In this document: in pieces, positions 45,552 through 62,713 of the stretch | Layout of the letters: the number at the start of each line of letters is the position of its first letter | Position numbering within the stretch: position 1 is the stretch's first letter | Assembly (NCBI GenBank): GCA_001769655.1 | Contig: MEPC01000024.1 | Span: 389,572-453,571, forward strand | Reading direction: 5' to 3' | Length of the DNA: 64,000 bases | DNA from: Bacteroidetes bacterium RIFCSPLOWO2_12_FULL_37_12 | GTDB lineage: Bacteria > Bacteroidota > Bacteroidia > 2-12-FULL-37-12 | Made by a program: the position numbers and the translations under genes | Notes under the pieces: generated by a model | Databases searched by the model: none | Seen by the model: only the letters and a program-made list of their open reading frames with translations | Told to the model about the DNA's origin: nothing

Positions 45552-45720
45552 TTATACTGTTAACGTAACAAATTTCATCAAATGTCTATATTGACATATT
45601 GTTCTATTGTTTCATTGTTTCATTGTTAATTGACCCCATGATTTCAGCACAACAATGAAACAATGTAGCAATGGAACAAAGAACAGAGTTAAACGAAAAT
45701 TTATACCGATTGCAGTATAA
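45552..45720 (+). mobile_element. MITE-like element, family 2, copy A (169 bp)
   Basis: Terminal inverted repeats TTATACTG... at the left and, inverted, TTATACTGCAATCGG at the right. The interior is rich in ATTGTTTCATTG-type palindromic sequence. A copy in the opposite orientation lies at 62561-62713. It contains no ORF and sits between recJ and lptB, directly upstream of lptB. Confidence 0.85.
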
Positions 45721-45756
45721 CTGATATATTGACACAGAGCACCGTGTCTTACATTT

Positions 45757-47457
45757 CTACATTGTATAATTTACATCCTTCACGTTCAACTGCACCGTCC
45801 TCCTTCCGTTCCATTCATTCTCTTCCACACAATAACAGGCATTAAACGGTATTCCGCGTGAAATATACGGATAATGCTCTGCCATGCCAAAAGCAATACC
45901 ATCAAAAGAGATTGAGTTTTCCTGACGCAAAACCATTTTAAGATGGTTGGAACCCACTTTTCTTGCAAATCCTGAGTCATAGACGGTTTCGCTCATAAAA
46001 ACCGGCGCCATGTTTCCGGGTCCGTAGGGCTCAAAGTCACTCAGCTTTCTGACAAAGTCAGGAAGAATCTGGCTCAGATTAATTTTCAAGTCAATCTCTA
46101 TGGATGACACCAATTGTTCTTTCGTAATCTTTTTAGTAACCTCCTCATCAAACTTTTGAATGAATTCAGGAATTTTCTCTGTAGAAATGGTTAATCCGGC
46201 GGCATACTTATGTCCTCCGTATTGAATCAACAGATCTTTACAGGAACTGAGTGCTTGGTAAATATCAAAACCAGCCACCGAGCGGGCTGAACCAACCGCC
46301 ACTCCGTTAGATTTAGTTAAAACAATGGTAGGACGGTAATGATGTTCAATCAGTCGTGAGGCAACAATGCCAATCACACCTTTCTGCCACTCAGGATGAT
46401 AAATTACCGTTGTGCACATTTCGTTGTAACCTTCAGTTTGTTTTAATAATTCAAGTGCTTCGAAGGTTGTATCAGCATCAAATTCCTTGCGTGTATCGTT
46501 GTGTGTATTAATATCTATAGCCAGTTTGCGGGCTGTTTCCATTTCATCTGCCATCAGTAAATCTACCGCAAGCCGCGCAGAACTGATTCTGCCAGCCGCA
46601 TTTATTTTAGGTCCTACTCCAAAAACAAGGTCGCTGATTGAAAACGCTGATTTTTTTCCTAACATATCGAGCAATGCTCTAATTCCGGGACGAGGTGTGG
46701 AATTAATAATTTTTAAACCATGAGCTGAAAGTATCCGGTTTTCGCCTGTCACCGGTACAATATCCGATGCTATGCTTAGTGTCACTAAATCGAGCCAGGG
46801 TTTTATAGTTTGAATGTCAAATCCTTTTGAAATAGCCAATGCCTGAATTAATTTAAAACCTATCCCACAACCTGAAAGCTCTTTAAAAGGATAATGACAC
46901 TCAGGTTGTTTTGGGTCCAGAATGGCTAATGCCGGGGGAAGAATATTATCAGGAAGATGATGATCGCAAACAATAAAATCAATGTTGGCATCACAAGCAG
47001 ATTGAATGGCTGAGTGTGCATTGATACCGCAATCCAACGAAATTATAAGTGTCACTCCCTTTTCTTTGGCATATACAATCCCAGGCAAAGAAACTCCATA
47101 GCCCTCTTTGTAGCGGTCGGGAGTATAAAATTCAACTGTTGCCTGTTGACTTTTAAGATAGGAAACCATCAAAGCAATGGAAGTTGTGCCATCTACATCA
47201 TAATCGCCATACACAAGTATTTTTTCCTTTTTATTTAATGCAGTTGAAATTCTGGCTACTGCTTTATCCATGCCTTTCATCAGGAATGGGTCGTGAAGAT
47301 GCGAGAGGTCCGGATGAAAAAACAATTGGGCTTCTTCGGGGGTATTTATGCCTCTTTGAATCAACAGTTTTGTCAGATAGACATTCAGCTTTAGCTGCTG
47401 AGCCAGATTCTGAACAAGTTCAGGATTTGGCAATGGTTTAATTTTCCACGTTTTCAT
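45757..47457 (-). CDS. recJ: Single-stranded-DNA-specific exonuclease RecJ
   Basis: RecJ degrades single-stranded DNA 5'->3' in recombination and repair. The 566-residue protein has the DHH domain: VYGDYDVDGTTSIALMV, ISLDCGINAHSA, CDHHLPD, ILDPKQPECHYPFKELSGCGIGFKL. The DHHA1 domain follows (GVIGIVASRLIEHHYRPTIVLT, VAGFDIYQALSSCKDLLIQYGGHKYAAGLTI), and an OB-like C-terminal region ends it. Length is usual. A -7 box lies upstream on the minus strand. Confidence 0.95.
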   Translation of the reverse strand: MKTWKIKPLPNPELVQNLAQQLKLNVYLTKLLIQRGINTPEEAQLFFHPDLSHLHDPFLMKGMDKAVARISTALNKKEKILVYGDYDVDGTTSIALMVSYLKSQQATVEFYTPDRYKEGYGVSLPGIVYAKEKGVTLIISLDCGINAHSAIQSACDANIDFIVCDHHLPDNILPPALAILDPKQPECHYPFKELSGCGIGFKLIQALAISKGFDIQTIKPWLDLVTLSIASDIVPVTGENRILSAHGLKIINSTPRPGIRALLDMLGKKSAFSISDLVFGVGPKINAAGRISSARLAVDLLMADEMETARKLAIDINTHNDTRKEFDADTTFEALELLKQTEGYNEMCTTVIYHPEWQKGVIGIVASRLIEHHYRPTIVLTKSNGVAVGSARSVAGFDIYQALSSCKDLLIQYGGHKYAAGLTISTEKIPEFIQKFDEEVTKKITKEQLVSSIEIDLKINLSQILPDFVRKLSDFEPYGPGNMAPVFMSETVYDSGFARKVGSNHLKMVLRQENSISFDGIAFGMAEHYPYISRGIPFNACYCVEENEWNGRRTVQLNVKDVNYTM

Positions 47458-47527
47458 AGTTTAAGGATGTTTGGGTTTAAGAAAAATGACTAAATTGAAG
47501 GTAAGGATGTATTTATTTATTGGATTG

Positions 47528-47535
47528 CAAATGTA
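47528..47535 (-). promoter_or_regulatory. Promoter -7 element of recJ
   Basis: On the minus strand this reads TACATTTG and C, matching the -7 consensus about 70 bp before the recJ start. The rest of the 330-bp gap up to 47788 holds no gene that I can support, only AT-rich sequence. Confidence 0.45.
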
Positions 47536-47787
47536 ATAGTTTCTTTTCAAATAAAAAATTTCACACCTCACTCCCCCTTTAATACCAAAATGAACCAGTT
47601 CTATCCCAAAATGAGAAAAAAAACATTTATAATACCATATTAACAATTTATTATTAAATAGTTGAAATAGTAAAACCCGTCTGTAGCTATCTGTAAGGCA
47701 CTTTTTTATATAAAAGTGAGTTGCTCGCTTTACCAAATTAAGTTTTGGCATAGGTTTTGGGAATATAGTACCCCTTGCATTTATAAA

Positions 47788-48510
47788 ATGAGAGCCAAAG
47801 AAAACATAAGACCTTTTATTTTGAAAGTAATCAATGGTTTATTATTTCTATTACTATGTACTATATTTTATATAATGCCAACCGCCGGGAATTCAACAAA
47901 CAGGTTCGGTGGAATATCGGTATGCATGCGCTCTGACTTTATGGATAATGAATCGCCGGCTTGTGTCAGGTTTTTTAAATCGGATAATGACTTACAGCAA
48001 ACATTACTGATGTTTGGCGCTTCCACTTCTAAAGAAGGGGATAGTTTCTTGTATTGGGTAATGCACCCTGAAAAAGAAAACTTTTCGTTTGAAATTCAAC
48101 GGTTGAATGGTGAAAAGTGGGAGTTTATTGCCGGCACCTCCAGCAACGAAAATACAATCAAACCTACCTATTATGACATCCCTGTCAGCCATACCGTAGG
48201 AAGAAATTTTTATCGTTTAAAACAAATTGACTCTAAAGGGAGGTATAGTTTTTCGGAGGCATTTGAGGTAGATTGGACAGGAGAACGTGTTAATATTTCC
48301 AACCATCCTTTTTTTGAAGACCCACAAAATACAATTCTTGTAGTGATAAATGATACGGAGGGAAACACCCTGGCATTTAAGACACAAATAAAATACGAAA
48401 ATGGAAATCTCTACGCACTCAGCAAGCCCTATAGAGCACAAAACGGCGAATATAAAATAATCGGTTCATCTACTAATATTTTTGACGGCTCTACCTTGGT
48501 GTTGAGGTGA
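47788..48510 (+). CDS. Secreted protein of unknown function with a fibronectin-like segment
   Basis: The start at the ATG at 47788 (MRAKENIRPFILKVINGLL) is chosen because a signal-peptide-like hydrophobic run follows directly; the frame can be extended upstream to 47716. The 240-residue protein has the passage FSFEIQRLNGEKWEFIAGTSS...NFYRLKQIDSKGRYSFSEAF, which resembles the beta-sandwich that often precedes T9SS sorting domains. The C-terminus (NIFDGSTLVLR) is short and lacks the usual type A motif. It is probably a secreted or lipid-anchored surface protein. Confidence 0.65.
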   Translation: MRAKENIRPFILKVINGLLFLLLCTIFYIMPTAGNSTNRFGGISVCMRSDFMDNESPACVRFFKSDNDLQQTLLMFGASTSKEGDSFLYWVMHPEKENFSFEIQRLNGEKWEFIAGTSSNENTIKPTYYDIPVSHTVGRNFYRLKQIDSKGRYSFSEAFEVDWTGERVNISNHPFFEDPQNTILVVINDTEGNTLAFKTQIKYENGNLYALSKPYRAQNGEYKIIGSSTNIFDGSTLVLR

Positions 48511-48529
48511 CGGGCTTTTCTTACCTTTG
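48502..48529 (+). promoter_or_regulatory. Promoter of the glcD-like gene
   Basis: TTG (48502-48504), a 17-bp spacer and TACCTTTG (48522-48529) fit the consensus. Transcription would begin near 48534, downstream of the frame's upstream ATG at 48507, so it indicates a later start codon. Confidence 0.6.
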
Positions 48530-48551
48530 CAGAAAAAACCAAGTCACCACT

Positions 48552-49949
48552 TTGAATTTCAATAAAATCACTTCCGAGACGATCTCGCTCCTTGAAAACT
48601 TGGTAGGAAAAAATTTTGTTCACTACGACGAAGAAAACTTACATCATTATTCACATGATGAAACTGAGGACTTACAATTCAAACCGGAAGTCGTTGTAAA
48701 ACCAAGAACTTCAGAGGAAATTAGCAATATTTTACAACTATGCAATCAGCATAAAATTCCAGCAACGCCGCGGGGTGCTGGAACAGGATTGAGCGGCGGG
48801 GCTTTGCCGGTTTATGGTGGGATAATCATTTCCACGGAACGTTTTAATTCCATCCTCAACATTGATGAAGAAAACATGCAGGCAACCGTTGAGCCGGGAG
48901 TAATAACTCAGGTTTTTCAGGATGCGGTGAAGGAAAAAGGATTGTTTTACCCTCCTGATCCTGCAAGCAAAGGTTCTTGTTTTCTGGGAGGAAATCTCGC
49001 TGAGTCATCCGGAGGACCAAAGGCAGTAAAATATGGAGTTACCAAAGATTATGTATTGAATGTAGAAGTTGTTTTACCAACCGGCGAAATTATTTGGACC
49101 GGCGCAAATGTGTTAAAAAATGCCACCGGATATAATCTAACCCAACTCATCATTGGCAGTGAAGGAACGCTGGGTATTATTACAAAAATAGTTTTCCGAC
49201 TTATCCCCTACCCCGACAAGGACTTAGTCATGCTTGTGCCATTCAAATCACCGGAAAACGCCTGTAAAGCAGTTGCGGCAATTTTCAGAACAGGAGTGCT
49301 TCCTTCGGGATTGGAATTTATGGAACGGGATGCCATAACCTGGGCAATCAATCATTTGAAATTAACAATGAAAATAGAAGATGACATTCAGGCGCACCTA
49401 TTAATAGAAGTTGACGGAAATGATTTGGATTCACTTTATAAGGACTGCGAAAAAATTGCAGGTGTGTTGGAAAAATTTGAAGCCGGTGACATTCAATTGG
49501 CGGATACTTCTGCACAAAAAGCGGAGTTATGGCGGTTAAGAAGAAATGTGGCGGAATCGGTAAAGTCACATTCTGTTTATAAAGAAGAAGACACCGTTGT
49601 TCCCCGCGCCCATCTTCCCGAATTGTTGAAAGGGGTTAAAGAAATCGGAAAGCGCTACAATTTTCAATCGGTTTGCTACGGTCATGCAGGGGATGGTAAT
49701 CTTCATGTCAATATAATTAAAGGAACGATGTCTGACGAGGATTGGAATCTCAAGTTACCGCAGGGAATCAGGGAAATTTTTATACTTTGCGCTAAATTAG
49801 GCGGCACAATTTCCGGTGAACATGGGATAGGATGGGTGCAGAAACCCTATATGGATGTAGTATTTAATCAAACGCAACTTGATTTGATGAGAAAAATAAA
49901 AATTCTTTTTGACCCGAATGGAATTTTGAATCCCGGAAAGATTTTTTGA
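48552..49949 (+). CDS. glcD: FAD-linked oxidase, glycolate oxidase subunit GlcD-like
   Basis: The flavoenzyme oxidises a 2-hydroxy acid (glycolate or D-lactate). The FAD-binding PCMH domain is clear: PRGAGTGLSGGALPVYGG, PGVITQVFQ, YPPDPASKGSCFLGGNLAESSGGP and KYGVTKDYVL. The C-terminal cap includes CYGHAGDGNLHVNII and GTISGEHGIGWVQKPYM. The TTG at 48552 (LNFNKITSET) is chosen as start because the promoter above lies before it; a frame from the ATG at 48507 is 15 codons longer. Partners GlcE/GlcF are absent, so D-lactate dehydrogenase-like function is possible. Confidence 0.9.
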   Translation: MNFNKITSETISLLENLVGKNFVHYDEENLHHYSHDETEDLQFKPEVVVKPRTSEEISNILQLCNQHKIPATPRGAGTGLSGGALPVYGGIIISTERFNSILNIDEENMQATVEPGVITQVFQDAVKEKGLFYPPDPASKGSCFLGGNLAESSGGPKAVKYGVTKDYVLNVEVVLPTGEIIWTGANVLKNATGYNLTQLIIGSEGTLGIITKIVFRLIPYPDKDLVMLVPFKSPENACKAVAAIFRTGVLPSGLEFMERDAITWAINHLKLTMKIEDDIQAHLLIEVDGNDLDSLYKDCEKIAGVLEKFEAGDIQLADTSAQKAELWRLRRNVAESVKSHSVYKEEDTVVPRAHLPELLKGVKEIGKRYNFQSVCYGHAGDGNLHVNIIKGTMSDEDWNLKLPQGIREIFILCAKLGGTISGEHGIGWVQKPYMDVVFNQTQLDLMRKIKILFDPNGILNPGKIF

Positions 49950-50017
49950 TGAAAAACAGGTAATTGTTCAGTCCCCAAATTAATTTAACCACTAATTGAA
50001 CAAGAAAAAAATATTTA

Positions 50018-50085
50018 GCCACTGATTACACGGATTAAAAAAGGTATTAAGATTTTTTGTAACATTAATCCGTGCAATCAGTGGC
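50018..50085. repeat. Long inverted repeat GCCACTGATTACACGGATTAA
   Basis: Two 21-bp arms (50018-50038 and 50065-50085) pair with one mismatch around a 26-bp loop between glcD and the M61 gene. It would be a bidirectional terminator-like hairpin. Confidence 0.7.
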
Positions 50086-50139
50086 AAAAAAATAAACCAC
50101 CTGAATAGTAACCAAATTAGCAATTATTTCAAAGTATTA

Positions 50140-51975
50140 ATGTCTCCAACTAAAACACTGCTTTTCATTATCTTCTTTACACTGTTTTCAAATGTTCATG
50201 CTTATGAAAACAATCAGGGTTATCTTATTCAAATCAATTTGAATGAAGTAACGGATGATAAACTGAGTGTGACACTTTTCCCGCCGCCCATTCTCCAAAA
50301 AACAGCAACCTACATCATGCCTGCCGTTATTCCGGGTTCGTATTCTAAAAAGGACTATGGGAGATTCATTGAAAATTTCCACGCTTTTTCCGCAGGAGGC
50401 AAAGAATTGAAAGTGACACGCAAAGGAATTAATTTTTTTGAAATTGAAAATGCCACTGAATTAAGAAAAATTGAGTATCAAATCAATGACACCTGGGATG
50501 CTCCGAAAGGGGCTGATTATATATTTCAGCCGGGTGGCACTAACTTAGATGCAGGAAGAAATTATGTCATCAATAATTTTGGATTTTTTGGATACATTGA
50601 AGGGTACAGCCGCTCTCCTTACCGGTTAGAAATTAAAAAGCCCGGCTACATGTTTGGAAGCACCGCATTAAATGTAGAAAAACGTGAATCGTTTCTCGAT
50701 ATATTCACTGCCACCGACTACCGGCATTTTGCGGATTGCCCTATCCTATATTGTGCGCCCGACACAGCAGGATTTCAGAACGGTAATACAAAAATTTTTG
50801 TTTCTGTTTATTCTGCATTGGGTACCGTAAATGCCGACTCGCTACTCCCGTTATTTGAGGATATGTGTAATGGTTTGAAAAACTTCTTTGGTACATTACC
50901 GGTTGACCGTTATTCATTTATCTTATTTTTTGCAGATCCCGGTCAAAAAGACATTCAGGGAAACGGCGGATTTGGCGCGCTTGAACATAATTATTGCTCT
51001 TTTTATTTTCTGCCGGAGGTGAAAAATCCTGAATACCTGAAAGAGTTGGTGCAATCAACATCTGTTCATGAATTTTTACATATTATCACACCGTTGAATC
51101 TGCATAGCCACGAAATTGCTGATTTTGATTTTGCCAATCCAAAAATGTCCAAGCATTTGTGGTTATATGAGGGAGTTGTTGAATATTTTTCGGTGCTCAT
51201 TCAGCTTCAGCAGGGGCTGATTTCTTTGCCTGACTTTATAAAAGAATTGCGGGAGAAAATAAACGTGGATGTGCAACACAAACCCATGTCGTTGGTGAAG
51301 ATGAGTAAGAAAGTGCTAAAAAAGAAATTTAACGTCCATTACGACAATATATATTATAAAGGAGCGTTGAATGCATTTTTGATTGATATCCTGTTGAATG
51401 AAACTACCGATGGGAAATTTAAACTCAACGATTTGATTCAGAAATTAACCACCACTTACGGCAGGGATAAACCCTTTTCGGATGATGAATTATTAAATGA
51501 AATTTACAGATTGACTTCCCCTCCGGTTAAAGAATATTTTCAAAATCATGTAGTGGGAAAAAAGCCGCTTCCGCTCCGTGAATATTTTGCTAAAATAGGA
51601 TGGACATTGATTCCTGCCGTTCGGGATACGGTGACAACCTGCGGGATTTTTGATCTTGAATTAGATACTAATTTATATCAATTACGGTTTGTAAATACCG
51701 GCACCAATGTATTTAATATTAAAGAGAATGACATTCTTGTTTCTGTAAACAAATTGACGTTGTCGGAAGATAATATTGATGAAATTGAGCGCTTGCTTTT
51801 TGATCCACAGCCATTCGAAATAATAACCTGTGAAATAATGAGGGACGAAAATTTGATTTCTCTCGTAGGCACCTCGATTGTTAAAATAATAGAAACGAAA
51901 AACATCATCGTAGAAAATCCAAACGCAGATGATAAAGCCATTGCGTTGAGGAAGAATGTACTTGGTATTAGATAA
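50140..51975 (+). CDS. M61-family metallopeptidase (glycyl-aminopeptidase-like) with PDZ domain
   Basis: The 611-residue secreted protein has a signal peptide (ending HAYE). The M61 catalytic domain (about 160-470) has the zinc motif VHEFLHIITP (HExxH at about residues 310-314) and the downstream glutamate in HLWLYEGVVEYFS. A PDZ-like domain (about 500-590: GIFDLELDTNLYQLRF, IKENDILVSVNKLTLS) ends it. M61 peptidases release N-terminal Gly or Ala residues. It precedes an outer-membrane protein gene on the same strand; whether they share a pathway is unknown. Confidence 0.88.
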   Translation: MSPTKTLLFIIFFTLFSNVHAYENNQGYLIQINLNEVTDDKLSVTLFPPPILQKTATYIMPAVIPGSYSKKDYGRFIENFHAFSAGGKELKVTRKGINFFEIENATELRKIEYQINDTWDAPKGADYIFQPGGTNLDAGRNYVINNFGFFGYIEGYSRSPYRLEIKKPGYMFGSTALNVEKRESFLDIFTATDYRHFADCPILYCAPDTAGFQNGNTKIFVSVYSALGTVNADSLLPLFEDMCNGLKNFFGTLPVDRYSFILFFADPGQKDIQGNGGFGALEHNYCSFYFLPEVKNPEYLKELVQSTSVHEFLHIITPLNLHSHEIADFDFANPKMSKHLWLYEGVVEYFSVLIQLQQGLISLPDFIKELREKINVDVQHKPMSLVKMSKKVLKKKFNVHYDNIYYKGALNAFLIDILLNETTDGKFKLNDLIQKLTTTYGRDKPFSDDELLNEIYRLTSPPVKEYFQNHVVGKKPLPLREYFAKIGWTLIPAVRDTVTTCGIFDLELDTNLYQLRFVNTGTNVFNIKENDILVSVNKLTLSEDNIDEIERLLFDPQPFEIITCEIMRDENLISLVGTSIVKIIETKNIIVENPNADDKAIALRKNVLGIR

Positions 51976-51993
51976 ATAAAATAATTCAATAGT

Positions 51994-52779
51994 ATGATAC
52001 CCAAAAAATTTTATAAAGAACTGTCTTTCTTCTTGTTTTTTTTGATTTCAGCCATCACTTGTCATTCTCAAGCCGCTGACACAAATTCACCGGCATCTTC
52101 ACGCTTCAATGCAGGATTGATTACTGCATCGTATTCCTTTGATATACCTTTTTCCGATTTAGCGAAACGTTTTGGATTCAATTCAGAAGTGGGATGTGGG
52201 TTTTATTATAAATTTAAAAATAACTGGATGGCGGGAGTGGAAGGCACTTTTCTTTTCGGCGAAACGGTAAACGAAAGTGGCATACTTGACAGTATCAGCA
52301 CAAACGAAAAATTTATCATAGGCACGGATGGTTATTTTGCAAATATTCAGATGTTTGAGCGGGGGTTTCGTTTACCAATGGTAAGGATTGGAAAAGTATT
52401 CTCCCTTCCCAAAAAATTTCCAAATTCAGGAATATTTATTCTTGGAGGCGCCGGATTCATCCAACATAAAATACAGATTGAGGATGTTTCCAAAACCGCC
52501 GTTCAGCTTTCGGAAGAATACCGCAAAGGGTACGATCGTTTAACGCAGGGACCTATTTTTTCATTTTCAGCCGGCTACCTTTTTCTGGAACCCACTCATT
52601 GGATCAGTTTTTTTTCAGGAATAGAATTAGCCATTGGATTTACACGTTCAGCAAGAGATTTTAACTATGACACAAGGGAAAAAGATACCCGGTTGCGAAA
52701 TGACCTATTGCTGGGTTTTTTCGCCGGCGTTTGTGTGCCTATATATGGGAAAACCGGAGAACAGTATTACTTATATTGA
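51994..52779 (+). CDS. Outer-membrane beta-barrel protein of unknown function
   Basis: The 261-residue protein has a signal peptide ending near CHSQA. Amphipathic beta-strands follow, with features of a small barrel (SEVGCGFYYKFKNNWMAGVEGTFLF, SGIFILGGAGFIQHKI, PIFSFSAGYLFLEPTHWISFFSGIELAIGF). No OmpA-type or TonB motif is seen. It lies 18 bp after the M61 gene and just before waaA, so the three may be one transcription unit. Confidence 0.65.
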   Translation: MIPKKFYKELSFFLFFLISAITCHSQAADTNSPASSRFNAGLITASYSFDIPFSDLAKRFGFNSEVGCGFYYKFKNNWMAGVEGTFLFGETVNESGILDSISTNEKFIIGTDGYFANIQMFERGFRLPMVRIGKVFSLPKKFPNSGIFILGGAGFIQHKIQIEDVSKTAVQLSEEYRKGYDRLTQGPIFSFSAGYLFLEPTHWISFFSGIELAIGFTRSARDFNYDTREKDTRLRNDLLLGFFAGVCVPIYGKTGEQYYLY

Positions 52780-52785
52780 GAGAAA

Positions 52786-52820
52786 ATCGTAAATCATAAA
52801 TCGTAATTCGTAAATCCTGA
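52786..52820. repeat. Heptanucleotide repeat just before waaA
   Basis: Five period-7 units (ATCGTAA, ATCATAA, ATCGTAA, TTCGTAA, ATCCTGA) run into the ATG of waaA at 52821. Confidence 0.75.
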
Positions 52821-54098
52821 ATGTCCCTCATCCTATACAATATCACCCTGTTTCTATACGAGCTTACGCTTTGGTTAGCATCCCCTTGGAATGTTAAGGC
52901 AAAGAAATGGATTTCAGGAAGGAAAAATCTGATTTTCAAAATTGAAAATGATTTTATTGAACATGGTACAAAAAAAAATACAAGAATCTGGGTTCATTGT
53001 GCATCGTTAGGAGAATTTGAACAGGCAAGACCGGTCATCGAATTAATAAAAAAGGATATTCCCACTGCTGAAATAATTCTCACCTTCTATTCCCCTTCCG
53101 GTTTCGAAATAAGAAAAAATTATGCTCTTGCTGAATTTGTTTATTATCTTCCTATTGACACTTCCTATAATGCCGGAAAATTTATTTCCATCCTTAAACC
53201 GGATATTGCCATTTTTGTAAAATATGAATTCTGGTATCACTATTTGAATACTCTCAAAAACAAAAAAATCCATGTATTTTTAATTTCAGCCATTTTTACA
53301 CAGGATCAGATTTTTTTCCGCTGGTATGGAGGGCTATTTAAAAAAATGCTTGAAACATTTACTCATATTTTTGTACAAAATGAATCTTCGTTAAAAATAC
53401 TTACCTCTCATGGTTATACTAATGTAACCGTTTCCGGTGACACCCGTTTTGACCGGGTTCGAATACTGTGCGGAGAAAAATTTCAGGAAGAAGAAAAATT
53501 AAAAAAATTTATTCAGGAAATTCCAGTGCTGGTTGCCGGAAGCATTTGGGAAAACGATTTGCGGGTGATCATCCCCTTGATTCATAAATTTAATCATCCC
53601 CTAAAAATAATCATAGCTCCTCATGAAGTGGATGAAAAAAGCCTAAAGATGTTAGAGGACAGTTTGCAAAAATCAACTATCCGTTACAGTCAATTTACAA
53701 GCAATGAAAATAAAGGGAAGTCCATAGAGAATTCCATATTGATTCTTGATACGATTGGCTTGTTGGGAAAAATATACCGCTTTGCCGCCATTTCATACGT
53801 CGGAGGCGCATTTGGAAAGGGATTACATAATATTCTGGAACCGGCAGCTTATGGCACTCCTGTAATTTTTGGACCCCATTACCAACGATTTCCGGAAGCA
53901 GTTGAAATGATAAACAGAGGAACCGGTTTTTCTGTTGAAAATTCTCAGGAGTTTTCCGATACGTTCGTGAAATTATACAGTGACACAAACTTGCGGGAAA
54001 AAATTTTTACAGAGCAAAAAAAATACATGGAGGAAAATTGCGGAGCGGCGGAAAGCGTGTGGGAGGGAATCAGGAATAAAAAGTTATCCGCTAATTGA
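52821..54098 (+). CDS. waaA: 3-deoxy-D-manno-octulosonic acid (KDO) transferase
   Basis: WaaA (KdtA) adds KDO to lipid A, the first step of the LPS core. The 425-residue GT30 enzyme has an N-terminal membrane-anchor helix, then WVHCASLGEFEQARPVIELI, TFYSPSGFEIRKNY, PIDTSYNAGKFISILKPDIAIFVKYEFW, and the nucleotide-sugar half with GDTRFDRV, HEVDEKSL and VGGAFGKGLHNILEPAAYGTPVIFGP. Length is usual. Its last residues (NKKLSAN) come from a dispersed direct repeat that recurs just downstream. It follows the outer-membrane protein gene with a short heptad repeat between them. Confidence 0.93.
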   Translation: MSLILYNITLFLYELTLWLASPWNVKAKKWISGRKNLIFKIENDFIEHGTKKNTRIWVHCASLGEFEQARPVIELIKKDIPTAEIILTFYSPSGFEIRKNYALAEFVYYLPIDTSYNAGKFISILKPDIAIFVKYEFWYHYLNTLKNKKIHVFLISAIFTQDQIFFRWYGGLFKKMLETFTHIFVQNESSLKILTSHGYTNVTVSGDTRFDRVRILCGEKFQEEEKLKKFIQEIPVLVAGSIWENDLRVIIPLIHKFNHPLKIIIAPHEVDEKSLKMLEDSLQKSTIRYSQFTSNENKGKSIENSILILDTIGLLGKIYRFAAISYVGGAFGKGLHNILEPAAYGTPVIFGPHYQRFPEAVEMINRGTGFSVENSQEFSDTFVKLYSDTNLREKIFTEQKKYMEENCGAAESVWEGIRNKKLSAN

Positions 54099-54260
54099 CG
54101 CTAATGATGCGCTAAATAAGAATAAAAAGTTATCCGCTAATTAACGCTAATTATTACGCGAATATACGCGAACAAAAAAAAATTAATCGATGATTAACGT
54201 TTATTATACGCGAAAATTCGCGGTTATTTTTTTTATTCGCGAAAATTCGCGGTTAATTTT
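54075..54260. repeat. Direct repeats and AT-rich Gly-poor palindromes after waaA
   Basis: The 31-bp unit AATAAAAAGTTATCCGCTAA... occurs at 54075-54105 (inside the waaA 3' end) and 54121-54151. It is followed by ACGCGAATATACGCGAA and twice by CGCGAAAATTCGCGGTTAT (about 54200-54260). No gene is seen in this 190-bp stretch. Confidence 0.7.
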
Positions 54261-54285
54261 TATAAGGTATGTGTTTTTCACCTTT

Positions 54286-55794
54286 CTACCTTCCCATAAA
54301 AATCCACCCGCTTTTTACATCGCCCGAATCAAAATACAGCAGGTAGTAATATACCCCTTCATGTAAACCACTTCCATCCCACACAAATTCTTTTCCGCCG
54401 GGTTCATTATAAACAAGCACTCCCCAGCGATTAAAAATCTGATAACGGATTAACTTGCCTGTACAGGGGGATTCGGCAAATCTTTTCATGTTAAATACAT
54501 CGTTCTTTCCATCTGCATTGGGAGTAAATACATTTATTTCATTATACCGTTCTTTGGTTTTTTCAAAATCAACCATTTTGATTTTAATCAGTAACGTATC
54601 GTAAAGAAGGTCGGGACAACCGGTATTAATGACGATTAATTTTACAGTATAAATACTGTCGCGTATATTATTGCAATTGCATGTAACTGAAAAAGGGGAT
54701 TTAATTATTGCTTTGTCTTTTTTTTCCTGAAAATTAAATCCGGAGGTTGTGTTTAAATTAAATCCAACCCCTTCGGCTGTAAGTGTCAACGTGTCATTTA
54801 TATTCAGAGAATCCCATCCTACCACATTAAACTGTTGTGTTTCATTTAACCCTAACTCCCAAAATTCCTGCTTGGGGTCGGTAGAAATATAGGGAGGATT
54901 TATGGGAGGGCAATCCACCACCCAGAATTGAACTTCACGTCGGTTTACTCCTATAAGTTTTCCGTTTCTGTATTCTTCCATACGTACAGCCAGCACATAA
55001 ATGCCTGTTGAGTCAGGTGTCACTGTTATGTCACCATTAAAACGGTCAATGGTTAAAGGAATGGCACTGCCCATCACATTGCTGAGGTCGTAACCCGCTT
55101 TCCATGCGATGGTTTTATGAGGAGCCGGAGTAGGTTCGGGATAAGCCACCGAAGAATCGGCGGTACCAGATAAAGGAGTGTCTAACAGGAATACCAATGA
55201 ATCACCGTCTGCATCGGTTCCTTTAAAATTATAGAAAAAGGGCACACCGGTGCACATAAAACGCATGGGTTCGTTGGTGAATTTTGGAGTGGAGTTTTTG
55301 AGAGATGGGTCAGGGGTTTCGCAATAAAAAACGATTCCGGTTTCTAAGGGCTTAATGATATTTTTAATATTTTTATTCCGCCAACCGTTTTCCCATACAA
55401 AATAATACCCGTTCGGATTAGGAGGAAGTTTAATTTCCTTACGATAAATTCCTTTTTCAATGCAAACGGTGTCTGTTTCAAAACATCCTTTCGAAAAATA
55501 TACACTGGTTATTACCGGAGTGCTCACTCTTACTAATTCAAATAAATTATTCGTATTTTTTTCAAAAATTCCCACTCTAGCTGTATCAGAAAACCATGGG
55601 TGAGGACCTTCACTGCCAGGAGGGGAGCAATCCCTGTACATGATCAGTTTGATTTCATAAACAAAGAACCCGTTTTCTTCACGCAGGTAATTACATTCAA
55701 AGTCACCGCCTACAATGTGCGTGGCGTATAAGTGCTGGCTCGTCAGTATGAGGTAGAATAGTAAAAGTAAAGAGGTTTTATATGGAAATTTCAA
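54286..55794 (-). CDS. T9SS type B (gliding-motility-type) C-terminal domain protein
   Basis: The product is a ~500-residue surface protein. The start at the TTG at 55794 (LKFPYKTSLLLLFYLILTSQ) is chosen because the promoter -7 box (55825-55832) overlaps the longer frame's ATG at 55827. After the signal peptide come beta domains (HIVGGDFECNYLREENGFFVYEIKL) and a Cys-rich middle. The type B sorting domain ends it (INVFTPNADGKNDVFNMKRFAE...YQIFNRWGVLVYNEPGGKEFVWDG). Such proteins are exported by the T9SS with SprF-like helpers. Confidence 0.82.
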   Translation of the reverse strand: MKFPYKTSLLLLFYLILTSQHLYATHIVGGDFECNYLREENGFFVYEIKLIMYRDCSPPGSEGPHPWFSDTARVGIFEKNTNNLFELVRVSTPVITSVYFSKGCFETDTVCIEKGIYRKEIKLPPNPNGYYFVWENGWRNKNIKNIIKPLETGIVFYCETPDPSLKNSTPKFTNEPMRFMCTGVPFFYNFKGTDADGDSLVFLLDTPLSGTADSSVAYPEPTPAPHKTIAWKAGYDLSNVMGSAIPLTIDRFNGDITVTPDSTGIYVLAVRMEEYRNGKLIGVNRREVQFWVVDCPPINPPYISTDPKQEFWELGLNETQQFNVVGWDSLNINDTLTLTAEGVGFNLNTTSGFNFQEKKDKAIIKSPFSVTCNCNNIRDSIYTVKLIVINTGCPDLLYDTLLIKIKMVDFEKTKERYNEINVFTPNADGKNDVFNMKRFAESPCTGKLIRYQIFNRWGVLVYNEPGGKEFVWDGSGLHEGVYYYLLYFDSGDVKSGWIFMGR

Positions 55795-55824
55795 AATAGT
55801 ATTACAATCGTAATAATTATAACA

Positions 55825-55860
55825 CAAATGTATGAGGTTTTAGTTATTTAAGTAAGTTTG
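55825..55860. promoter_or_regulatory. Overlapping divergent promoters
   Basis: A minus-strand -7 box (TACATTTG, complement of 55825-55832) and a plus-strand -7 box (TAAGTTTG, 55853-55860) lie 20 bp apart. The two promoter regions must overlap, so the divergent genes probably exclude each other's polymerase. Confidence 0.5.
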
Positions 55861-55878
55861 CATATTATTGAACCCATC

Positions 55879-56979
55879 GTGAGTCGTCCTTTCCATATAA
55901 TCGCAACAGTAATTAATGACCTGAACTATGACCAGCGCATGCAACGAATATGTCAATCGCTGGCAAAAGCCGGTTATACTGTCACTTTAATAGGAAGAGA
56001 ACTGAACTCTTCTACATCTCTCAAAGAAAAATCCTATATTCAGAAACGTTTCCGGTGTATATTCAACAAAGGGAAATTTTTTTATCTGGAATACAATATT
56101 CGGCTCTTTTTTTATTTATTGTTTCATCCTTTTGATTTGGTCTGGTCTGTGGATATGGATACTTTATTACCGGGCTTTTGGGTTTCATCCCTGAAAATGA
56201 AATATTGTGTGTATGATGCACATGAATATTTTTCAGAAGTACCGGAATTGGAAGAACTCCCGTTTGAAAAATGGGTATGGAAAAAATTGGAAAATTGGAT
56301 GATTCCTAAATTAGATTATGCCTGCACGGTTTCTGATTCATTGGCGCAGGAATTTTACAAAAAACACAAAAAGAAATTTATTTTATTGCGGAATTTGCCG
56401 ATGGGAATTAGGGAAATTCAAAATTCCGGCAATGAAAAAATCATCCTGTATCAGGGAGCGCTAAACAAGGGGCGGGCGCTATTTGATTTAATTTTAGCAT
56501 TTAAGATAATTCCTGCCAAACTTTTATTAGCAGGTGAAGGGGATATTACTTTAGAATTAAAAGAGTTGGTGAAAACCAATCATCTTGAAAACAAAGTTTC
56601 GTTTACCGGAAGAATGGCGCCAGAAGAACTTTTCAAACTAACGCAAAATGCTTTTCTTGGAATAAACCTGCTTGATGGAAATGGATTAAATAATTATTAT
56701 TCGCTGGCAAACAAATTTTTTGATTATTTGCAGGCGGGGATTCCTTCGTTATGTAACGATTATCCGGAGTATAAGATGATAAATAACGAGTTGGAAGTTT
56801 CTGTTTTGTTAAAAGAAGTGACCCCTGAATCTATCGCTGGTGCCATTAATCAATTACTTATGAATGACACACTTTATTCTCATCTTAAAACAAATTGCAA
56901 TGTGTTAAGAGACAACTATGTTTGGGAAAAGGAAGAGGGGAAGTTGTTGGAGTGGGTTTTTAGGATTAGAAACAGGTAA
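55879..56979 (+). CDS. Glycosyltransferase family 4-type protein
   Basis: The start at the GTG at 55879 (MSRPFHIIATVINDLNYDQRM) is preferred because it follows the -7 box; the frame is open from a TTG at 55858. The GT-B fold is seen from FHIIATVINDLNYDQRMQRICQSL, the DAHEYFSEVPELEELPF segment, IILYQGALNKGRALFDLILA, KLLLAGEGDITLEL, VSFTGRMAPEELF and LANKFFDYLQAGIPSLCNDYPEY, the nucleotide-sugar-binding E. It probably makes surface glycan or LPS sugar. Donor and acceptor are unknown. Confidence 0.87.
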   Translation: MSRPFHIIATVINDLNYDQRMQRICQSLAKAGYTVTLIGRELNSSTSLKEKSYIQKRFRCIFNKGKFFYLEYNIRLFFYLLFHPFDLVWSVDMDTLLPGFWVSSLKMKYCVYDAHEYFSEVPELEELPFEKWVWKKLENWMIPKLDYACTVSDSLAQEFYKKHKKKFILLRNLPMGIREIQNSGNEKIILYQGALNKGRALFDLILAFKIIPAKLLLAGEGDITLELKELVKTNHLENKVSFTGRMAPEELFKLTQNAFLGINLLDGNGLNNYYSLANKFFDYLQAGIPSLCNDYPEYKMINNELEVSVLLKEVTPESIAGAINQLLMNDTLYSHLKTNCNVLRDNYVWEKEEGKLLEWVFRIRNR

Positions 56980-56999
56980 TTGTTCTTGAATTGCAAAAA

Positions 57000-57041
57000 C
57001 CTCACCCCAGCCCCTCTCCAAAAAAATGGAGAGGGGTGAGG
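57000..57041. repeat. CCTCACCCC inverted repeat
   Basis: CCTCACCCCAGCCCCTCTCC (57000-57019) and GGAGAGGGGTGAGG (57028-57041) are complementary apart from a 6-bp insertion (AGCCCC). A related fragment is at about 61018-61050. It separates the glycosyltransferase and TPR genes. Confidence 0.65.
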
Positions 57042-57064
57042 TCATTAAAAACCAAAATTTCCCA

Positions 57065-57072
57065 TAACTTTG
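57065..57072 (+). promoter_or_regulatory. Promoter -7 element at the TPR gene start (leaderless)
   Basis: TAACTTTG and C lie 4 bp before the ATG at 57077. Transcription would start at or near the ATG itself, giving a leaderless message. Confidence 0.45.
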
Positions 57073-57076
57073 CCCT

Positions 57077-60000
57077 ATGAAAAAACCTCTAACTATTTCT
57101 TGTTTTACATTTTATATTTTGCGTTTTACATTCTACATTTTTTGTTTCCTGTTTTGCGTTTTAAATTCTTCCGCGCAACAATCTAAAACTTCCGGCGAGC
57201 ACAACCGCTCCATTGACTCCCTGCTTACCTCACTCAAAGCCGACCGCAATGACACAAATAAAGTAAAACATCTTTATCAATTATGTAGTGAATTTAGACA
57301 AACCGGCAAATATAATGAGGGTTTGAAGTATGGCAATGATGCCCTGGAACTGGCACTACAACTGAAGTTTAAAAAAGGAATGGCTGATGCATACATCTTC
57401 ATCGGCAATATTCACGCGAACAAAGGCGATTATGAGAAAGCATTAGAATTTTATTTGAAGTCATTAAAAATAAAAGAAGAAATTGGGGACAAAAAAGGAA
57501 TGGCCGATTCTTACGGCAACATCGGCACCATTCAATGGAATAAAGGCGACTACGACAAAGCATTGGAATTTTATTTGAAGGCATTAAAAATATTTGAAGA
57601 AATCGGTGATAAAAAGGGAATGGCTGGTTCTTATATTGGTATCGGCAATATTCACCGTAGTAAAGGCGATTATGAGAAAGCCTTGGAATTTTTTTTAAAG
57701 GATATAAAAATAACAGAAGAACTCGGGGACAAAAAAGGAATGGCTGATGTGTACAATAACATCGGCCTTATTCATTATGATAAAGGCGATTATGAGAAAG
57801 CATTGGAATTTTTTTTAAAGGATATAAAAATAACAGAAGAACTCGGGGACAAAAAAGGAATGGCTGGTTCCTACATCAACATCGGCATTATTCACGATAA
57901 TAATGGTGATTATGAGAAAGCGCTGGAATTTTATACGAAATCATTAAAAATAACAGAAGAACTCGGGGACAAAAATGGAATGGCTGATGCGTACAACAAC
58001 ATCGGCAATTTTCACGCGAATAAAGGCGATTATGAGAAAGCATTGGAATTTTATTTGAAATCATTAAAAATAACAGAAGAACTTGGGGACAAAAAAGGAA
58101 TGACTGCCTATTACGGCAACATCGGTCTCTTAAATTCTGACTTGAAAAAATTTTCGGAAGCAAGAATATTTTTGAACAAGGGTTTACAACTCTCCATTGA
58201 AATTGGAACAAAAGATTTTACAAGAAATGCTTATTCGGGTTTATCCCAATTAGACAGCACACTCAGCAACTGGAAAGCCGCTTACCATTACCATCAATTA
58301 TATGCTCTCTACAAAGACAGCTTATTTAACGAAGAAACCACCAAGCAAATCGCCGATATGCAGACAAAATACGAAGCGGATAAAAAAGAAAAAGAGAACA
58401 GCATTTTACGAAAGAACAAGGAAATACGCATTCTACAAGAAAAGCAAAAAGCAGAACAGCAACGGCTCTTACAGGAAAAAATAGAAAGACGGAATCGTTT
58501 GCAATATTCTGCCATCGTTCTTGGGTTGTTTGTATTGTTTCTCGGGATATTTCTATTTGCAAACCGGTTTGGAAAATTCACAGAACACCAGCATTACCGG
58601 AAGTTCATGAAAATCACGGAAGTGTCACTGTTTATTTCGTTCCTGATTTTATTTGAATTTATCACGGTTCTTATAGACCCGTTCATTGAAAAATTTACAG
58701 GGGGAGAACCCATGTTCAAACTTATTCTCAATGCAGTGCTCGCCACCATCATTTTTCCAATTCACCACTACCTTGAAAAGAAACTCTCCGGCACGTTTAT
58801 TCCTGGTGGTGGGCATAAGGGCGGTGTTGGGAAATATCTTGTGGCGTTTATTTTGGTTTGTTTTATAAATTTTCATCCGCCCTTGTTTGTGTCTTCACAA
58901 ACAAGGGTCACACAAACAAACCGGAGTGACACTGCCCGCATAAACACACTCAACGCCCTTGCGGAAAAACTACAATCCACTAACCCTGATACCGCACTTA
59001 TACTATATAACCAGGCATTGGAAATTGCACAAAGTATAGCTACTCCTTCAGTCAGATTAAAAGAAACTGCTAATGCTTACCACAACATTGGCATTATTCA
59101 CCATAACATAGGGGATTATGAAAATGCATTGGAATTTTATTTGAAAGCATTAAAAATCACAGAAGAATTCGGGGTGGAATATCCCGATGATGTCGTGAAT
59201 AAAAAGGGAATGGCTGATTCTTACAACAAAATCGGTGTTGTTCACTTTAATAAAGGTGATTATGACAAAGCATTGGAATTTTATTTGAAATCATTAAAAA
59301 TAAGAGAAGAAATCGGAGACAAAAAGGGAATGGCTTCTTCTTACAACAACATCGGTCTTATTCATGCTGAAAAAGGCGATTATGAGAAAGCATTGGAAAT
59401 TTATTTTAAAGCATTAAAAATCAATGCAGAAATTGGTAATAAAAATTGGCTTGCTAATAATTACAACAACATCGGTCTTATTCATTGGGGAAAAAAAGAT
59501 TATGAAAAAGCATTGGAATTTTACTTGAAGTCGTTATCAATAAAAGAAGAACTCGGAGACAAACACGGTATGGCTAATTCTTACAACAACATCGGCATTA
59601 TTCACAAAAATAAAGCGGAACAACTGAGGAGTCCCGATAGTGCAGTATATCGTGAGCGACTATATGACATAGCATTGAAATATTATCTGAAGGCATTAAA
59701 AATAAGAGAAGAGCTCGGGGACAAAAACGGAATGGCTTCTTCTTACGGCAACATCGGTCTCTTATATAGTAAGGACGCTCAAATTAGGCGTCCCTTCAAA
59801 AAATTTGTGGAGGCAAGAATATATTTGAACAAGTGCTTGCAACTCTCCACAGAAATCGGAACAAAAGAGTGGATAAAAAACGCTTACGGGGGTTTATCCG
59901 AATTAGACAGCTCCCTCGGAAACTGGAAATCCGCATACCAATACCATAAATTGTATTCTGTCTATAATGACAGCATTTTGAACGAAGAAACTACTAAGCA

Positions 60001-60421
60001 AATCGCCGATATGCAGACACGCTACGAAACCGATAAAAAAGAAAAAGAGAATCAATTATTGAGAAAGGAAGAACTATTGATTGAATTGCAAAAAAAACGT
60101 GCCGCCGAAGAAGCAAAAATACAATCGGAGAAAATAAGCAAACGCAACTTGTTACAATATACTTTTATTGCTATTGTGCTTTTCATACTCGGCATGTCGC
60201 TCGGTATTTTCAAACGCTTTAAAGTTCCTGCAAAGGTGATGGAGGTTGCGGTATTTGTGGTATTCATGTTATTCTTTGAATTTACCTTAGTGCTCACCGA
60301 CCCTGTAATTGATTATGTAACGGGCGGCGCTCCGCTGTTGAAACTGATGTTCAACTCGGTCATTGCGGCTGTGTTGTTTTTTCTGCATCGGAAGAGTGAG
60401 AGGTGGGTTTTGAGGGAGTAG
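57077..60421 (+). CDS. TPR-repeat membrane protein: in-frame fusion of two paralogous genes
   Basis: The 1114-residue product is two copies of one protein. Copy 1 has a signal peptide, about eight 40-residue TPR repeats (GDYEKALEFYLKSLKI...), a coiled coil (TKQIADMQTKYEADKKEKENS) and membrane segments (about 475-560). Copy 2 begins with what looks like its own signal peptide at about 586-608 (KYLVAFILVCFINFHPPLFV), then about six TPRs, the same coiled coil and similar membrane helices (about 1025 on). TPR plus coiled coil plus helices is the N-terminal layout of some Bacteroidota sensor kinases, but no kinase domain follows. The TPR DNA units are near-identical (period about 120 bp). The membrane topology of copy 2 is unclear. 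Confidence 0.85.
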   Translation: MKKPLTISCFTFYILRFTFYIFCFLFCVLNSSAQQSKTSGEHNRSIDSLLTSLKADRNDTNKVKHLYQLCSEFRQTGKYNEGLKYGNDALELALQLKFKKGMADAYIFIGNIHANKGDYEKALEFYLKSLKIKEEIGDKKGMADSYGNIGTIQWNKGDYDKALEFYLKALKIFEEIGDKKGMAGSYIGIGNIHRSKGDYEKALEFFLKDIKITEELGDKKGMADVYNNIGLIHYDKGDYEKALEFFLKDIKITEELGDKKGMAGSYINIGIIHDNNGDYEKALEFYTKSLKITEELGDKNGMADAYNNIGNFHANKGDYEKALEFYLKSLKITEELGDKKGMTAYYGNIGLLNSDLKKFSEARIFLNKGLQLSIEIGTKDFTRNAYSGLSQLDSTLSNWKAAYHYHQLYALYKDSLFNEETTKQIADMQTKYEADKKEKENSILRKNKEIRILQEKQKAEQQRLLQEKIERRNRLQYSAIVLGLFVLFLGIFLFANRFGKFTEHQHYRKFMKITEVSLFISFLILFEFITVLIDPFIEKFTGGEPMFKLILNAVLATIIFPIHHYLEKKLSGTFIPGGGHKGGVGKYLVAFILVCFINFHPPLFVSSQTRVTQTNRSDTARINTLNALAEKLQSTNPDTALILYNQALEIAQSIATPSVRLKETANAYHNIGIIHHNIGDYENALEFYLKALKITEEFGVEYPDDVVNKKGMADSYNKIGVVHFNKGDYDKALEFYLKSLKIREEIGDKKGMASSYNNIGLIHAEKGDYEKALEIYFKALKINAEIGNKNWLANNYNNIGLIHWGKKDYEKALEFYLKSLSIKEELGDKHGMANSYNNIGIIHKNKAEQLRSPDSAVYRERLYDIALKYYLKALKIREELGDKNGMASSYGNIGLLYSKDAQIRRPFKKFVEARIYLNKCLQLSTEIGTKEWIKNAYGGLSELDSSLGNWKSAYQYHKLYSVYNDSILNEETTKQIADMQTRYETDKKEKENQLLRKEELLIELQKKRAAEEAKIQSEKISKRNLLQYTFIAIVLFILGMSLGIFKRFKVPAKVMEVAVFVVFMLFFEFTLVLTDPVIDYVTGGAPLLKLMFNSVIAAVLFFLHRKSERWVLRE
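57103..57172 (+). repeat. Heptanucleotide repeat inside the signal-peptide codons
   Basis: Ten period-7 units of TTTTNNN form (TTTTACA, TTTTATA, TTTTGCG, TTTTACA, TTCTACA, TTTTTTG, TTTCCTG, TTTTGCG, TTTTAAA, TTCTTCC) encode FTFYILRFTFYIFCFLFC in the 5' part of the TPR gene. Confidence 0.85.
59773..59793. repeat. Palindrome inside the TPR coding sequence
   Basis: GGACGC-TCAAATTAG-GCGTCC is in frame and encodes the insertion DAQIRRP that the first paralogue lacks. Over 19 bp it matches 60423-60441, just after the stop codon, at 16 positions. Confidence 0.7.
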
Positions 60422-60422
60422 A

Positions 60423-60441
60423 GACGCCCAAATTGGACGTC
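60423..60441. repeat. Palindrome after the TPR gene stop
   Basis: GACGCCCAAATTGGACGTC has one mismatched pair and begins 2 bp after the TAG stop; it is the same family as the in-frame palindrome at 59773-59793. Confidence 0.65.
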
Positions 60442-60463
60442 TGTACTTTGGAAGGGAGGGGAA

Positions 60464-60802
60464 AAATAGAAAATAGAAAATAGAAAATGCGATCCCGTTT
60501 TAACAATTTTACAATCATAAAAAAACCATACCAACTCAGCAAAAAAAAATATGTCACGCAAAGGCGCAAAGCACGCAAAGAAAAAAATCATAAATGATTT
60601 TTTTTCTCTGCGTACTTAATACTTTGCGCACTTTGCGCCTTTGCGTGACATATTTAAAACGAAAACTAGAATATACCTGAGTAAAGCATTATGAAAATGG
60701 AAATTAGAAAATAGTAATGGAAATTAGAAAATGGAAATTGGTGTTGGAAATCGGATATTAGATGTTTGATATTAGATATTAGATATTAGATATTAGATAT
60801 TG
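60464..60802. repeat. TAGAAAA and TATTAGA heptad arrays around a long hairpin
   Basis: TAGAAAA-type units lie at 60464-60489 and 60703-60736, and five TATTAGA units at about 60769-60802. This stretch also holds the inverted repeat of 60547-60655. No gene is seen between 60422 and 61062. Confidence 0.75.
60547..60655. repeat. Perfect 25-bp inverted repeat (GTCACGCAAAGG)
   Basis: The arms 60547-60571 and 60631-60655 (AAATATGTCACGCAAAGG... and complement) match at all 25 positions around a 59-bp loop. Confidence 0.75.
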
Positions 60803-60836
60803 TGAACCAGTAATAACGATATAACAAACTTCAAAC

Positions 60837-60960
60837 AACCTTAGTAACAAAAAACAGGTGGTTCTATTACCAACCTTATTACCTTATGAATAGAGGGAAG
60901 CATACCGGTATAAGGTAATAAGGTTTAATGAAATCTACGAACCATTTTTTTACTAAGGTT
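60837..60960. repeat. 51-bp-arm inverted repeat
   Basis: Arms 60837-60887 (AACCTTAGTAAC...ACCTTAT) and 60910-60960 (complementary, ATAAGGTAATAAGG...ACTAAGGTT) form an imperfect hairpin with the two ends well matched and a 22-bp loop. Confidence 0.65.
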
Positions 60961-61062
60961 TATTGAAATAATAAAGTCTTTCTTGTAATGCAATATTTAC
61001 TCCAACACTCCGATGTCATCCCAGCCCCTCTCCAAAATGAGGGTGAGGTCTTTCAGGAAGTG

Positions 61063-62520
61063 CTAAAATTTCTCCACCACATATTTCCCAGTTAATAAAT
61101 GGACAAGCTTTCCCAGATAAATACCCTGGTTCATTTTAGATAGATGAATATTTATTTCCTCAATAACATTCGGATTTTGATGCTCCAACTTGGTTTCTGA
61201 AATTTTCCTGCCGGTCATATCATATAATTGTAAAACCAGATTGCCATGCACCGGCAAATAAAATCTGACTCGCAACAGGTTCTTATCTGTTTGAAAGATC
61301 CGTAAGAAACTTTTTTCTTCCCTTAGGAATCTCCATTCTTCTTTTTGTGATAACGTGAATAAAGAGTCAAAAACAAAAAGGGTGTTTTGCTGTGATGACA
61401 TTAGAAATTCATCCTCCAGATTAAATCTTACAGCCGCAATATCCATATCTCCATCCTGATCCGCATCAGATACATCCATTGCATTAATGACATTATTTAT
61501 AGGATAGGAAAATGTTGGAACCGAATTTTCTACGACATACTTTATGAAATTTCCATTCTGATTGAGATATAGAATTAATCTTCCGGGGAAAAGTGTACCA
61601 TTAGAACAAAGCAATATATCATCATCTCCGTCCTTATCCACATCCTCAAATATTGCTTTAGAGTCCAACGTACTGTCTATGAAAATGGCTGTGAAATTTC
61701 CATTTCCATCATTGTTAAATACATGCAAACTGGCATCCTGTTCATGAATTCCCGCTGTAAAATCTACATCTCCGTCACGGTCATAATCTGAAGTATCAAT
61801 GTTGGTGAACATGGAATTAATAATATGAAAATTTGAATAGAAAATAAATTTCCCGTTTCCATCATTTTTGTATATTTTTTTTTCATCCACACAGCAACCC
61901 TCCAGGCAGATCAGGTCAAGATCGCCATCTTTGTCAATATCCGCTAATTGAACGGCAGTGCCACCAATAATGTCGTCCTGAAATTCATCCCATTCAAATT
62001 CTAAATTTCCTTTATTATAAAGAATCAAAGATATGTCACTCCCATTCCATCCTGACACAACGAAATCCAGCTGATTATCGCCATTCAGATCCGCACTTGA
62101 AAAATCAAATGCCTGAAATTCATCCAGTAATATTTTTCTGGTAAAAGTCCCATTTTTATTATTTGCATACAGATACGTGTTTCCTGTTAAATTATAGCGA
62201 AGGCGCTAAGTACCCATTACTATTTCAGGAAAGCTATCCTTATTCAGATCAACCCATTTTACAAAATTAATAAGCATTGAATCTGTAGAAAGGACTATTT
62301 TCTGAAAATTCAATCCGCCGGAATTGATGAATAACAATAAAGAGTCAATATTGCCCACCAATAAATCCTTGTCTCCATCGTTATCACTGTCACCCCAGGA
62401 ACAAACCAAGGAAGCGCCTGCGCCAAACATTGGAATTGCTTTGTAAGCAGGAACCCGCTGGCTGAAAGCAGAATAAATTAATTGTCCGATGCAAAAATGA
62501 AATAGTATGAGTTTTTTCAT
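61063..62520 (-). pseudogene. Broken FG-GAP/VCBS repeat T9SS cargo gene (in-frame stop)
   Basis: Two minus-strand frames in the same register (62520-62206 and about 62058-61063) are one gene interrupted by a TAG at 62208-62206. The N-terminal part has a signal peptide (MKKLILFHFCIGQLIYSAFS) and FG-GAP repeats (WGDSDNDGDKDLLVGN). After the stop the frame continues RLRYNLTGNTYLYANNKNGT, then more repeats (DIDKDGDLDLICLEG, DYDRDGDVDFTAG) and a type A T9SS domain (LRVRFYLPVHGNLVLQLYD, then GRKISETKLEH). The stop is part of a 14-bp palindrome (62195-62208), which looks like an insertion. Read-through is possible but unsupported. Confidence 0.82.
62195..62208. repeat. Palindrome carrying the premature stop codon
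   Basis: TAGCG-AAGG-CGCTA is a perfect 5-bp stem; on the minus strand its first codon in frame is TAG. Confidence 0.7.
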
Positions 62521-62560
62521 GATGGTGATTATTTGATGGCACACAAAGTTACATGAAATA

Positions 62561-62713
62561 TTATACTTCAATCGGTATAAATCTTCGTGTAACTCTGTTT
62601 ATTGTTCTATTGCTACATTGTTTCATTGTTGAGCAGAAATCATGGAGATAATTAACAATGAAACAATAGAACAATAAAGACATTTGCTGAAATTTGTTCC
62701 GTTTACAGTATAA
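62561..62713 (-). mobile_element. MITE-like element, family 2, copy B (153 bp)
   Basis: The inverted complement of the element at 45552-45720: ends TTATACTTCAATCGG (left) and, inverted, TTATACTGTAAACGG (right), with the same ATTGTTCTATTGTTTCATTG interior. It lacks one short segment (about 16 bp) that copy A has. It lies in the 360-bp gap before the PadR gene, which holds no other gene. Confidence 0.85.

Follow-up and report, generated by a model that had tools for sequence, protein, structure and literature searches.

What are the two similar sequences in opposite orientation, here called copies A and B, that lie next to lptB and next to a PadR-like gene, and do they serve these genes? The window, a stretch of 64,000 nt, corresponds to positions 389572-453571 of contig 24 (MEPC01000024.1) in a 3.94-Mb assembly of 43 contigs. 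An earlier note on this DNA had described two inverted copies of a miniature element (MITE), with a possible TA duplication in the manner of the Tc1/mariner/IS630 type, and had suggested that both might carry promoters or hairpins for their neighbours. With a probability of roughly nine in ten, we consider A and B to be non-autonomous MITEs of the IS630 group (Tc1/mariner superfamily), which is the best full explanation of the two copies.

Copies A and B and their family in the host genome

Both copies are present where the earlier note had placed them (45552-45720 and 62561-62713), except that its limits were one base too wide at each end (Table 1). They align over their whole length, which the note had described as nearly so (BLAST; 82% identity end to end, E = 2e-43), and the internal difference of ~16 bp corresponds to two 8-bp repeat units, one arm of copy B being shorter than in A by two octamers. 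The placement of the copies upstream of lptB and of a PadR gene was likewise correct: copy A has recJ and lptB, reading in the same direction, on either side, with the lptB start 8 bp downstream of the element, and copy B is flanked divergently by a minus-strand gene and a plus-strand PadR-like gene. The ends of A and B read TATACTG(T/C)AA(A/T)CGG(A/T)A(C/T)AAAT and are asymmetric, with TATACTGTAAACGGAACAAATTTC on one and TATACTGCAATCGGTATAAATTTT on the other. Neither copy contains an annotated gene or a long internal ORF.

Table 1. Positions in the window of copies A and B and of their parts.
Feature	Position	Strand	Basis
Copy A, class 1, 167 bp including both flanking TAs	45553..45719	+	BLAST, end-pattern matches, alignment of 11 copies
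Mobile unit of copy A, between recJ and lptB	45555-45717
Left flanking TA of copy A (putative target-site duplicate)	45553..45554	.	sequence; TA duplication in sister copies and relatives
Right flanking TA of copy A (putative target-site duplicate)	45718..45719	.	sequence; TA duplication in sister copies and relatives
Conserved left end of A, TATACTGTTAACGTAACAAATTTCATCAAATGTCT	45553..45587	+	copy alignment and family end pattern
Hairpin arm 1 of A, (ATTGTTTC)n octamers	45599..45627	+	inverted repeat I1, 29 nt, 90% complementary
Hairpin arm 2 of A, (GAAACAAT)n octamers	45651..45679	-	inverted repeat I1
Conserved right end of A, reverse complement TATACTGCAATCGGTATAAATTTTCGTTTAACTCT	45685..45719	-	end pattern and copy alignment
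Copy B, class 1, 151 bp including both flanking TAs	62562..62712	-	sequence, BLAST, end pattern, copy alignment
Mobile unit of copy B	62564-62710

The genome-wide BLASTN search that the note had proposed as a check identified copy A as a multi-locus sequence with 12 near full-length relatives in the host genome. When up to three mismatches were allowed, the host genome gave 51 matches to the end pattern TATACTGYAAWCGGWAYAAAT, as against four for the reversed pattern that served as control. Pairing of these ends yielded 21 two-ended copies in the assembly, and some four further copies have lost one end (L010, L016, L029 and L218), for a family total of about 25. Six single weak end matches, mostly inside coding sequence, were not counted (C13:55, C29:9985, C42:169325, C42:195472, C4:44437 and C3:46234). 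The 21 copies are non-coding, measure 91-167 bp, well within the limit of ~500 bp for a MITE, and have paired ends at many loci, which bears out the terminal inverted repeats described earlier.

In an alignment of 11 copies, some 35 bp at either terminus, beyond the repeats, hardly vary, and the same ends enclose two classes of interior, with arms of (ATTGTTTC)n in class 1, which includes A and B, and of (ATGGTTAT)n in class 2. Lengths in class 1 are 167, 159 (158 in one copy) and 151 bp, that is, steps of one octamer; in class 2, apart from two exceptions, they mostly exceed 91 bp by a multiple of 8 or equal it, to within about one base. Several copies also adjoin GTAATACTATAGTATTAC, a perfect palindrome, or one half of this sequence (the right flanks of L048 and of L019/L051, C2:11308 on and C4:13444 on; and near L011), which may belong to another small repeat family.

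Related elements in other Bacteroidota and their TA target

The genomes available for comparison are no nearer to the host than the same class. A DNA search with copy A of 149 class-level genomes returned octamer arrays only, whereas the ends, at one mismatch, were present in 8 of 395 class members and matched 14 loci of the GTDB collection, nine of which belong to Bacteroidota (MAGs or genomes). The groundwater Bacteroidia MAG G150 has ~40 end matches and the Saprospiraceae MAGs G152 and G154 have ~55-60 each, in every case with 0-1 control matches, and G379 holds at least eight near-identical copies of 153 bp. Paired ends in other genomes span 63-351 bp and enclose unrelated, mostly palindromic interiors, with repeats of, for example, the CACGCAGAG, CAAATTCCAAG, GTTGGTA and CTTCGACAGGCTCAG types. 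One copy in G150 (C104; L094 1200-1387) has an extra stretch of 30 bp in one end, between GATAAAT and TTCCGC, which is perhaps a nested insertion. End-pattern matches in Clostridia lack a partner end and are apparently chance hits; the plasmid collection, searched with an end sequence, gave no convincing match, and the viral collection gave one lone end match without a good partner end.

The target of insertion can be read from empty sites. The flanks of the G379 copies, joined with a single TA, were sought in the genus of G379, and for one copy an empty paralogue was found in the same genome together with empty orthologues in four other species of the genus (G404, G413, G099 and G416), all of which read TTTCTCTTAT-TA-ACTC at the junction and contain exactly one TA. 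For a second G379 copy, the empty paralogue shows a single mismatch over 107 bp, and the sequence that this copy entered is an IS630 transposase pseudogene. Three copies of the host genome itself, two of class 1 (C33:81071 and C42:140160) and one of class 2 (C4:13344), interrupt tandem arrays with periods of 7, 7 and 11, and the phase of the array across the junction is best when exactly two bases, the TA, are kept (19/21, 20/21 and 20/33 matches, whereas other offsets give no more than 13/21 and 17/33). Both the G379 relatives and these three copies thus entered otherwise intact sites with duplication of a TA, in the manner of Tc1/mariner/IS630 that had been thought possible; empty sites lacking a TA duplication, the outcome that would have spoken against it, were not what the G379 relatives gave. 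For A and B themselves, we infer the duplication from these sister copies and relatives.

A 153-bp copy in an IS630 transposase pseudogene is seen at G379:C32:22000-23300 (L181) and G379:C110 (L172). The targets of L002 and L004 in the host genome are short intergenic 7-bp arrays, (TTAGTCA)n and (ATAATTA)n (C33:81000-81300 and C42:140100-140400), and the 5-12 bp of identical flanking sequence at these two loci, which might be taken for a longer target duplication, are accounted for by the arrays.

These results also bear on whether the resemblance between the copies amounts to nothing but widespread octamer microsatellites, (ATTGTTTC)n, with no element at all. While about seven class-1 octamer arrays do lie outside any element in the host genome, and the class relatives match copy A in the octamer repeats only, the ~35 bp beyond the repeats are conserved, recur with other interiors and are inserted at TA with duplication. 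The similarity is therefore not confined to ATTGTTTCATTG, and the microsatellite explanation is extremely improbable.

IS630-type transposases next to the same ends

A search with PF13358 found IS630-type genes in G379, G152 and G150 and none in the host genome, G154 or G095, and a translated transposase search had no match in the host assembly (97.9% complete). Neither search thus gave an autonomous partner in the same genome, which MITE status does not require. Given that the host assembly has no transposase match, the window copies are probably stranded and immobile in this genome now.

Partners are found elsewhere. The G150 gene (390 aa) encodes an intact IS630 transposase, which scores 187 bits with the NCBIfam model NF033545 (cut-off 100), and is flanked by TATACATCAAACGGGATAAATT and by an end that retains the inner AAACGGGATAAATT while its outer bases are changed. 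Transposase remnants abut the same family end in G151 (70% identical) and in G095 (72% over 25 residues). G164 contains a 1185-bp IS630-type element of which both ends match the family (TATACATTAAACGG... and TATACTGAAAACGG...), and the transposase encoded there shares 68% identity with the G150 enzyme and has four in-frame stops. A fully intact IS was not found, given these stops in G164 and the one altered outer end in G150. At 22/22 positions, one G379 MITE end and the IS630 end of G095 agree; the ends in the host genome agree with the G164 IS ends at ~19/22 positions, so that we leave the particular parent unnamed. Ends shared with elements or remnants of IS630-type DDE transposases in G164, G150, G151 and G095 bear out the assignment to the Tc1/mariner/IS630 type, and the IS630 group of the putative mobilising enzyme is well supported by these comparisons. 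An IS630-type element in G001:C25 (L232), more distant at 48% identity, has the ends TATACTTCATGGCG, which suggests that TATACT may be general to this IS630 subgroup.

A different enzyme could in principle recognise the same ends and the same TA target, the IS630 elements being hitch-hikers or cases of convergence. The host genome, G154 and other carriers without an IS630 transposase match would agree with such an arrangement, but multi-copy IS get lost from MAG assemblies, IS630-type genes or remnants abut these ends in four genomes, and TA duplication is the IS630/Tc1 signature; we regard a non-IS630 transposase as very unlikely. Under the preferred reading as IS630-group MITEs, an IS630-type transposase acting in trans would have recognised the asymmetric ends, those of the window copies presumably included, and would have excised or copied the unit, cut-and-paste being the probable mode. 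The unit would then have been placed into a TA, which was thereby duplicated. The inner part would be dispensable for movement and may have turned into an imperfect hairpin built from 8-bp tandem repeats, which are added or lost one at a time. With the transposase gene apparently gone, the window copies would no longer move.

Neighbouring genes, interiors and known systems

Another possibility is that the elements have been retained because they function as terminating or mRNA-processing hairpins or as portable promoters for lptB and PadR, with mobility belonging only to their past. All 21 two-ended copies are intergenic (the neighbouring genes are co-directional at 16, convergent at 3 and divergent at 2), and most lie within tens of bases of both neighbours; copy A ends just before the lptB start, and its predicted hairpin is strong (-49 kcal/mol). 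However, selection against gene disruption also yields an intergenic location, and the hairpin is not followed by a T-run, has no Rfam match and shows compensatory changes at 0 of 48 consensus pairs in 11 copies, a test limited by low divergence, with several pairs broken. The Bacteroidota-type promoter (TTTG/TAnnTTTG) has no match in copy A, and the one match beside copy B, with one mismatch, is in line with the window background of ~1.1 per kb per strand. Retention for such a function thus seems unlikely, and the promoters or hairpins that the earlier note had envisaged for lptB or PadR find no support in the sequence.

The unusual part of the family is the combination of fixed ends with an interior of inverted short tandem repeats that differs between lineages and within one genome. 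Class-1 arrays outside elements fit the capture of such arrays by an element or their release from one, and either direction would be compatible with the sequences. Free-standing (ATTGTTNC)n arrays without element ends lie at C20:80426-80479, C29:5276-5313, C29:14561-14590, C6:50156, C24:97885, C29:14165 and C33:108440, and also occur in some class relatives (G029, G058 and G063). It is conceivable, if rather doubtful, that a phylum-wide IS630-type shell with fixed ends of ~25-35 bp repeatedly takes up the short tandem repeats of its host lineage as an inverted-pair interior and so disperses octamer arrays between genes.

Elements of this kind are known. RUP of Streptococcus pneumoniae is a ~107-bp intergenic, non-autonomous element with a TA target and ends in common with IS630-Spn1, and it inserts into IS genes (PMC2229807). 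The present family is likewise intergenic and non-autonomous, with a TA target, IS630-shared ends and a G379 copy in an IS630 pseudogene; unlike RUP, it has other ends, another host phylum, octamer arms, lineage-specific interiors and a partner IS that is not in the same genome. The Correia elements (NEMIS, CREE) of Neisseria fall into size classes of ~107 and 155 bp, are palindromic and have TA at their termini (PMC2229807). Size classes, palindromic structure and terminal TA are similar here, whereas the end sequence differs and sizes vary with octamer number rather than by one 50-bp segment. BrickBuilt of Porphyromonas gingivalis is also a Bacteroidota MITE with a tandem-repeat interior, a 23-bp minisatellite (PMC4596501), but it has IS5-type ends and no inverted arms, in contrast to the IS630-type ends and the 8-bp units in both arms found here. 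Compared by transposase alone, the closest annotated relatives in the plasmid collection are IS630 elements of the ISAcma14 type from Acaryochloris plasmids (39% identical to the transposase of G150). In a search of the literature outside subscription, we found no paper naming Bacteroidetes, IS630 and such elements together; the kind of element is known, and the family is apparently undescribed.

The analysis provides tested ends, a TA duplication and a partner transposase group for a MITE family in scattered Bacteroidota lineages, and the end pattern could be used to label many unexplained intergenic palindromes in genome annotation. Constant ends with differing hairpin interiors also allow one to ask how one MITE interior gives way to another, and whether the short tandem repeats that are common between genes of Bacteroidota are spread by elements of this kind.

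Elsewhere in the window, an ORF of 1114 aa (57077-60421) contains TPR-like repeats of 40 residues (120 nt) in two sets, one at 57356-58255 and the other at 59059-59767. The segments that follow the repeats are duplicated as well, and the ORF resembles two fused copies of one gene.
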